Assembly: GCA_000381565.1 (NCBI GenBank)
Contig: KB906724.1
Location: 10,085-74,084, forward strand
Origin: Oxalobacteraceae bacterium AB_14
GTDB lineage: Bacteria > Pseudomonadota > Gammaproteobacteria > Burkholderiales > Burkholderiaceae_D
Direction of reading: 5' to 3'
Length of the DNA stretch: 64,000 bases
Shown here: positions 39,329-40,254 of the stretch, in pieces
Numbering within the stretch: the first letter of the stretch is position 1
Layout: every line of letters starts with the position of its first letter
Position numbers and translations under genes: made by a program
Notes under the pieces: generated by a model
Told to the model about the DNA's origin: nothing
The model's input: only the letters and a program-made list of their open reading frames with translations
The model's database searches: none

Positions 39329-39368
39329 TTGTTCTTCGCGGATTTGCGGGAAGCAAACTCGGATCCGG

Positions 39369-39405
39369 AGGTTTGGGTATTCCTTTCGGCAGTAAAGTCT
39401 AATTC
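39369..39405 (+). repeat. left inverted repeat of island
   Basis: AGGTTTGGGTATTCC, 13 bases, GTCTAATTC; inverse partner at 40218-40254 with the same 21-base offset between the two conserved blocks. Confidence 0.6.
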
Positions 39406-39570
39406 GATCAAAATCGCGCCGATTCAGTCTAGTGGCGTCCAAAATCTCCGGGGGGGCGAGTTTTCTAGACTGAAATCGCCGGAATGCCAAATTCACTAGA
39501 CCGGAATCGTCTTCGCAAAGCAACCCCAAGACCGAATTAGACTCTCCCTCATGACGGCTTAGACCGACCT
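39396..39570. repeat. left motif array (about 31-bp period)
   Basis: Inverted copies at 39397 and 39427 (30 bp apart), then forward copies AGACTGAAATCG at 39467, AGACCGGAATCG at 39498, AGACCGAATTAGAC at 39529 and AGACCGACC at 39561, stepping 31, 31 and 32 bp. The spacing equals about three helical turns, so proteins would bind on one face. Intervening bases are not conserved, which excludes a CRISPR array. Confidence 0.65.
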
Positions 39571-40037
39571 GGATGTATCAACATCGCGTACTGCACGTCT
39601 TTGTAGTTGCTCGGCAAAGCGCGCCCTGTAACTGTCGGCACGGATCCAGTAGTCATCGCCGGGAAAGCGCAGCCAAACAAAGCGCCACGCGTTGCGCCCC
39701 TTTGCATGGCGATTGGCGAACAGCGAGGGATGATGGACTCGCCATCGTCGGTCAGGATGCGATCACCGACTACTTTGGCGAATTCAATGGTGTCGTGGTA
39801 GCTGGTTCGCAAATTGGTTCTGTCGGGCAGGAAGATATTCTTCCATTGAAAACCGCGCATCGCTTGACCATTCTTGCGCAGCGCGAGCCGCTCCATTTCA
39901 ATCTTTAACCATCGCTGAACCAGTTCCGTGACAAAGGCATCGGGTTTGACACCCGGTCGTGTAGCCATCAAATGGTATTCCAGATTCTGAAAATCAAGCA
40001 GAGGCAGGTATATTTGGTGTTTCGCTTCGTATGCCAT
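39559..40037 (-). pseudogene. unknown protein, frameshifted
   Basis: From ATG 40037 (AAGGA upstream) the frame runs MAYEAKHQIYLPLLDFQNLE... to about ...TDDGESI. From roughly 39725-39740 a neighbouring frame continues better (PSLFANRHAKGRNAWRFVWL, then RFPGDDYWIRADSY) and stops at 39559; staying in the first frame gives a low-quality tail to 39549. A one-base shift therefore probably broke a protein of about 160 residues. No family was recognised. It is the sole cargo of the island. Confidence 0.55.
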
Positions 40038-40120
40038 GATGGATTCCTTTCGAACGGGGTCTATAAGTTGGACCACGGAACGGGATTATGGTTCGCTTTA
40101 GACTTTGGCTTGCTAAAACG

Positions 40121-40226
40121 CGACCAAATTAGATTTGGCTACCGGACTTCATCGACCGTTTTGGACATCGCTTGGGAATTTCAGACTAAATTAGCTACAT
40201 TCGGCTCCAACCAGACTGAATTAGAC
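40121..40226. repeat. right motif array
   Basis: Copies at 40121 (CGACCAAATTAG), 40153 (CGACCGTTTTGG, weak), 40183 (AGACTAAATTAG) and 40213 (AGACTGAATTAGAC), steps of 32, 30 and 30 bp, all in one orientation and opposite to the outer left pair. Confidence 0.6.
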
Positions 40227-40254
40227 GAAGTTGCGATTTGGAATACCGAAGCCT
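40218..40254 (-). repeat. right inverted repeat of island
   Basis: Complement reads AGGCTTCGGTATTCC, 13 bases, GTCTAATTC, mirroring 39369-39405. Confidence 0.6.

Follow-up and report, generated by a model that had tools for sequence, protein, structure and literature searches.

A probably self-regulating gene unit of an undescribed family in Oxalobacteraceae bacterium AB_14

Ribbon-helix-helix (RHH) proteins are the classical readers of tandem operators, the operators themselves being made of tandem direct repeats; REP-RAYT systems pair a small gene with short repeats belonging to it and are dispersed in one bacterial group; and the ends of Tn7 and Mu carry several sites inside inverted ends. 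Something of each is found in an island of repeated short motifs at positions 39369 to 40254 of a 64,000-nucleotide stretch from Oxalobacteraceae bacterium AB_14 (assembly GCA_000381565.1, contig KB906724.1, positions 10,085 to 74,084), the whole of which is called the window here. The island holds one minus-strand gene, encoding a protein of 159 amino acids, whose reading frame is lost in this strain past about codon 104, and from comparison with its relatives it is a damaged copy of an unnamed, uncharacterised family of small self-contained gene units. The unit is probably a self-regulating one of an undescribed family; for the fuller reading, that the family consists of self-regulating DNA-binding genes which spread as array-plus-gene units and that the island is one broken copy, we would put the chances at somewhat better than even.

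The likeness to each described system is partial. With the RHH autorepressors (CopG/Arc/MetJ/ParD) the family shares direct repeats near its own promoter, spaced by about one helical turn, and a weak N-terminal resemblance, the best sequence match of the N-terminal profile in the PDB being a CopG/Arc/MetJ antitoxin at E 0.16, but it has a RAMA-like domain in addition, a sigma-E-type promoter flanked on either side by inverted arms, and many paralogues with different motifs, and no toxin partner was noticed. REP-RAYT is matched in the pairing of a small gene with its short repeats and in dispersal within one bacterial group, but the motifs of HUH and tyrosine transposases are not seen, no histidine or tyrosine standing among the invariant columns of the family alignments. 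As in Tn7 and Mu, several sites lie inside inverted ends in subfamily A, to which the island belongs, but the motif varies between paralogues and no transposition genes were noticed.

Nearest to the C-terminal domain, by best fold match, is the RAMA domain (PF18755), a phosphate-contacting or sequence-independent DNA binder according to the available text of three reports (PMC9963953, PMC6787082, PMC12839542). The residues of CcrM that contact DNA phosphates include Ser315, His317, Asn330, Trp332 and Arg350 (PMC6787082), whilst MPND contacts DNA through Ser113, Ser115 and Trp135, alanine mutants of which are nearly without binding; the available text of that report names no contact with a base and proposes that binding is independent of sequence (PMC9963953). 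Unlike these proteins, the family described here has its RAMA-like domain fused to an RHH-like part, is tied to private arrays, is mostly unrecognised by Pfam and is associated with specific bases.

The gene family and its predicted protein

An intact close homologue of the window's protein is present in the protein database (P0010), and 17 intact relatives have 61-79% identity with the subfamily-A member L002. One protein search gave 321 homologues, and a broader profile matched 640 of 8000 scored candidates at E <=1e-5; among the 120 of these matches that were listed all names are "hypothetical" or "uncharacterized", with no Pfam domain indicated. The named loci come mostly from Duganella, Pseudoduganella, Rugamonas and Massilia, with a few from Janthinobacterium and Nitrosospira. 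Within the host's genus the broad profile matched 66 of 74 genomes, with 1-16 matches each, and in the rest of the class 4 of 368 other genomes. Our literature searches turned up no paper on this family. The ratio of nonsynonymous to synonymous change (dN/dS) was 0.09-0.26 in 15 of 15 gene pairs, which shows the family genes to be under strong purifying selection.

Sequence profiles and structure models together suggest a protein with an RHH-like N-terminus and a RAMA-like C-terminus. The best fold matches of the C-terminal domain are the RAMA domains of CcrM and MPND, and in the alignments a [ST]-P-x motif, followed by N-[AG]-W and a conserved arginine, matches the DNA-contact residues of RAMA domains (Ser-x-His/Ser, Asn-x-Trp and Arg; a match of motifs, made without superposition). 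Scans of family members against Pfam and NCBIfam gave no match other than to the RAMA model, which L080 and the distant relative L082 match under the Pfam cut-off (1.1e-6 for L082). The monomer model of the N-terminus has two helices, at residues 13-26 and 32-56, and the strand expected of an RHH fold is not formed in it.

Private arrays and a residue that may read them

Most of 30 upstream regions share one plan, in which repeats in one direction lead into a promoter-like box pair, followed by the same repeats inverted and then by the ATG; a few distant members, such as L054 and L057, are without it. The pattern GAAC[CT]-N17/18-TC[TC]AA occurs in 130 of the 173 genes with enough upstream DNA, and in 0.5% of shuffles, with distances from its first box to the ATG that cluster at 54-57, 64 and 75 bases, i.e. 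one repeat unit apart (outliers reach 167). The boxes resemble a promoter of sigma-E, the extracytoplasmic function sigma factor of envelope stress, and by eye GAACTT-N16-TCTATA, which the scripted pattern missed, lies upstream of the host's best rpoE match. The strict pattern is also found before L263 and L267 (G000), whose starts look by eye like those of signal peptides or lipoproteins, and which are plausible ordinary sigma-E targets.

Each gene appears to have an array of its own. For the 112 pattern genes whose promoter lies <=110 bases from the ATG and has >=60 bases before it, the left arm has 17.3 6-mers in common with its own inverted right arm, as against 3.6 with the arms of other genes, 3.8 with a shuffled right arm and 0.46 with the right arm in direct orientation. 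Paralogues of subfamilies B and C in the window's own genome likewise have their own upstream repeats, which differ from those of A. Within the arms the repeats return at distances of 10, 20 and 31 bp and, in a second series, of 12-13 and 22-23 bp, and so the 31-bp step remarked on in the original prediction corresponds to three units of a 10-bp grid. Comparison of the upstream regions thus shows the architecture of the arrays, their privacy and their periodicity. A scan of the collected loci for arrays before other genes returned 25 rows, all of them family-gene-like by eye. A conserved block resembling GGAGTATGCACA-GGGGTG...CTCCTTGTGGCAAA is seen upstream of the left arm at many loci (L203, L204 and L211 among them), about 60-120 bases before the -35 box.

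From this layout, a sigma-E-type promoter between two inverted arms of repeats spaced by about a helical turn and then the RHH-like/RAMA-like gene, we infer that the protein lines up along its own array on both sides of the promoter, an occupancy by which the gene would limit its own expression. The choice of sequence may be made at least in part by the [S/T]-P-x turn and the next short helix of the RAMA-like domain, which would read the bases immediately preceding AG in each repeat. The residue concerned is x, the third of the motif (Ser105 in L002, referred to as residue 105), which by motif, and without superposition, corresponds to His317 of CcrM and Ser115 of MPND. A change at x would be accompanied by a change of the repeats in both arms, so that each paralogue addresses mainly itself.

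The bases before AG sort by x, serine going with TAG, arginine with CGAG, histidine with AGAG and asparagine mostly with CAG or TAG. When 109 of the 112 genes, the set used from the correlation of arrays with protein identity onward, were sorted by x, the base before AG was T in 23 of 24 genes with serine and G in 15 of 16 with arginine and 9 of 9 with histidine. The association is also seen within subfamilies: in one of 26 genes CGAG is top or tied for all 11 with arginine and AGAG is first or second for all nine with histidine, and in one of 10 asparagine goes with TCAG (3), arginine with CGAG (3) and serine with ATAG (4). At a single shared site occupied in seven genes, the repeats are TAG in three genes with serine and CAG in three with asparagine, whilst the seventh, L226 (serine), is mixed. 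Its array, about 120 bases before the ATG, intermingles TAGGC and CAGGC units as if in mid-transition, the arrays of sister species being purely TAG or purely CAG.

Shared descent was taken into account with trees. In a tree of 128 genes x changed 13 times, seven of them on branches where the base also changed (25 of 254 branches; hypergeometric 4.5e-5), and serine arose three times, accompanied by T throughout save in L226. On a second tree 131 alignment columns were scanned, after the mutual-information and matched-pairs tests mentioned below. Residue 105 headed the ranking (6 of 12 changes, p 1.4e-4), followed by residue 109 (p 0.0076), which lies four positions on in the same helix. A different counting window placed residue 105 second (p 0.0044) for the base before AG and first (p 2.1e-6) for the one preceding that; for the bases after AG it was absent among the four columns listed.

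The residue rule was also applied to held-out genes, having been fixed alongside the search that located them and before their DNA was read. There were 44 matches, of which 12 had proteins already in the set, 11 had no promoter pattern within 110 bases and two had no usable start, so that 19 were scored, one of them carrying a residue that the rule does not cover. Scoring took account of the base before AG alone, arginine and histidine thus making one prediction. The rule was right for 14 of 18 genes, where shuffles gave 8.5 and 22 of 2000 did as well; the genes are new but kin to the training genes, five of the 19 (L313, L315, L316, L322, L327) belong to genomes that had already been searched, and several of the remaining genomes already had other genes in use (L051, L064, L073, L075).

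Sequence comparison shows an association between residue and base. What would follow, if the association reflects recognition, is a set of dispersing, self-addressed units in which a short recognition helix of the RAMA-like domain reads a private operator array by a simple code (S for TAG, N for CAG or TAG, H for AGAG and R for CGAG, refined by the residue four further on), with protein and array changing together and siblings blind to one another; we hold this more elaborate scheme tentatively, as something short of an even chance. This mutual blindness, akin to phage immunity groups, could let each unit spread unsilenced by its relatives. Base reading by a RAMA-like domain would be new, since MPND is described without base contact in the available text (PMC9963953). 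Were it true, the RAMA domain would gain a role in reading sequence, by a code that single-residue swaps and hundreds of natural protein-array pairs could test, and the family would be one of mutually insulated autoregulators, a natural system in which regulator and operator change together without losing each other. It is the association of residue and base that is most worth a test at the bench.

A number of observations weigh against these readings. The promoter pattern is absent from 43 of the 173 genes, and it is not enriched in the window's own genome, where the strict form occurs nine times (five before family genes, and two of the other four before genes whose start resembles, by eye, that of a signal peptide or lipoprotein) as against 30 in the reversed control; a gene's own right arm ranks in the top 5% for only 61 of 112 left arms. 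Asparagine at x is ambiguous (C in 23, T in 22 and G in 13 of 58), and of the four held-out genes that failed one tied, one nearly did so, and in two no clear repeats can be made out by eye. A mutual-information scan with loose control of descent ranks residue 105 fourth, with residues 113-114 above it, and a noisy matched-pairs test puts residue 123 first, 37 second and 105 third. The corresponding residues of CcrM and MPND touch the backbone, and the available text mentions no contacts to bases (PMC6787082, PMC9963953); Foldseek alone gave no match at E <=0.001. Array similarity correlates equally with identity of the N-terminal and of the C-terminal part of the protein (0.70 for each; partial 0.28 and 0.28).

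The last of these figures bears on another explanation, that the arrays are read by the N-terminal RHH part and that the link with the RAMA-like residue stems from shared descent or an indirect effect. It would be in keeping with the role of RHH proteins as readers of tandem operators, N-terminal identity tracks array similarity as well as C-terminal identity does, and some N-terminal columns score in the column tests. L072 and L073 have nearly the same N-terminus (identity 0.87), yet their repeats are CAG and TAG and their x residues N and S respectively, and the tree-based scan puts first residue 105 and then residue 109 of the same short helix, so that we regard this explanation as fairly unlikely. 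The Mantel comparison was dropped as a means of separating the two protein domains, which correlate with the array alike.

The island in the window

The island itself shows the parts of the unit, with the gene broken. Its features are as follows.

39346..40254, minus strand: whole subfamily-A unit, outer limits approximate, from the extent of the DNA match to a copy in G051 and a copy in the own genome
40240..40247, minus strand: end block GGTATTCC, 203-210 bases upstream of the ATG (also at -210 in L022 and L002)
40100..40234, minus strand: array upstream of the promoter, AGAC-type repeats with plus-strand starts at 40100, 40121, 40153, 40183, 40213 and 40223, from motif positions
40068..40094, minus strand: candidate sigma-E-type promoter GAACCATAATCCCGTTCCGTGGTCCAA, from a pattern match
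40058..40066, minus strand: inverted repeat copy TTATAGACC, the right arm, between promoter and ATG, from the sequence
39559..40037, minus strand: broken gene for the 159-amino-acid RHH-like/RAMA-like protein, frame lost near 39727-39732, from tblastn pieces, three-frame reading and the intact homologue P0010
39397..39572, minus strand: second array, 3' of the gene, repeats at 39397, 39427, 39467, 39498, 39529, 39539 and 39561, the outermost two inverted relative to the rest, from motif positions
39376..39383, plus strand: inverted end block GGTATTCC, 3' of the gene, from the sequence

The left start probably lies near 39346, about 23 bases further left than the island was first drawn, because the match to the G051 copy, which is 85% identical, begins there. 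Another copy, 75% identical and with the same ends, is present in the own genome, and of 100 genomes searched 41, the own genome among them and all from one genus, have a DNA match to the island; the plasmid collection searched gave none. The island lies between secF and a lysR-type gene, and amongst 29 other secF loci compared the lysR-type neighbour is kept in three (G026, G466, G015), from all of which the unit is absent; the DNA around the junction is too diverged in these three relatives for target duplications to be read. On the comparison of these copies and sites, the island behaves as a discrete unit.

Ends of the kind predicted, inverted and with two conserved blocks at equal 21-base offsets, are indeed present, GGTATTCC at 39376-39383 having its complement at 40240-40247 and GTCTAATTC beginning 21 bases inward on either side. 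The eight internal motif copies also exist, though they are uneven in quality: relative to AGACYRAATTAG the left-side copies at 39467, 39498, 39529 and 39561 have two, three, no and three mismatches, and the right-side copies at 40121, 40153, 40183 and 40213 one, four, none and none, those at 39561 and 40153 being poor. Against 2000 dinucleotide shuffles the island (39369-40254) has 13 plus-strand AGACYRAATTAG sites with <=4 mismatches, where the shuffle mean is 5.4 and four shuffles reach 13, 14 copies of AGAC/GTCT against 5.0 (none as many), and six pairs of AGACYRAATTAG sites at a spacing of 30-32 bp against 0.09 (none as many). The 12-mer with <=2 mismatches occurs 13 times in the whole window, against 4.1 expected. 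The cargo is one frameshifted gene, as had been read from the sequence, and the window unit holds no further gene of size.

Arrays within inverted ends are what had led to the island being called transposon-like, with kinship to Tn7 or Mu. If the arrays were transposon ends bound by a transposase acting in trans, the gene would be cargo or an accessory end-binding protein, and the inverted ends of subfamily A with repeats inside both of them, the dispersal of the units and one gene-less array of subfamily C with inverted outer ends, resembling a miniature element, are in keeping with this. The arms of most paralogues, however, flank the promoter and stop at the ATG, and their motifs differ from one paralogue to the next, which would not be compatible with a transposase common to them all; no target duplication was noticed, nor was a transposase in the copies read, where no systematic search for transposases and none aimed at tnsB or tniA was made. 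It would seem very improbable that the arrays are such ends. A discrete, dispersed unit with inverted ends and a multi-site array is therefore what stands of the first description, and Tn7/Mu kinship is not supported, as in the paralogues the plan is kept but built around a promoter from motifs of quite another sequence; the resemblance to a TnsB site lies in the array motif itself, the outer part GGCAGTAAA being GGCCATAGA in L022 and GGGCAATCA in L023. The other option offered at that time, an undescribed multi-site DNA-binding system, is the better of the two.

Subfamily A, the window's kind, often carries a second array 3' of the gene together with inverted ends. Among 32 subfamily-A genes, L001, L002 and L022 have a clear GGTATTCC end at 210 bases before the ATG and L047 has a variant of it; inverted counterparts lie 3' of the gene in several, and 3' arrays are found in many copies.

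Dispersal of the units

The genome G015 has five similar copies (L195-L199) with sharp borders, each at a site unrelated to the others. Their likeness begins some 200 bases ahead of the ATG and ends some 30 past the stop, except that L199 diverges earlier. Genes of different subfamilies also stand beside DNA that is shared, on at least one side, across species, as with L085 (B) and L159, L160, L165 and L167, and with L002 (A) and L221. These comparisons show that the units are dispersed, and the array-plus-gene unit as a whole would spread to new intergenic sites, which, if true, would be a route of gene dispersal without a recognised transposase.

It could instead be supposed that this is an ordinary, vertically inherited regulator family whose positions differ through rearrangement and loss, a supposition with which the strong purifying selection and the several sites common to species with alike genes would agree. 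The five sharp-bordered copies at unrelated sites in one genome, the genes of different subfamilies beside shared flanks and the range of 0-16 copies per genome within one genus all speak against it, and we consider it unlikely.

Some further features of the units that are taken here to spread may be recorded. The gene-less array of subfamily C is at 1401-1587 of L183 (G000:C1:1424300-1424486), where a degenerate promoter and inverted outer ends (CGCGCTCCTTCTAGCAAACC) give it the look of a miniature element. By a crude method based on open reading frames, under which flanking-gene orientation was clear in 27 of 169 units and unclear in the other 142, 22 of the 27 have a following gene that faces the unit. 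Finally, two subfamily-C copies in the own genome, L088 and L089, have identical arms and diverged protein tails, which suggests gene conversion of the array together with the N-terminus.
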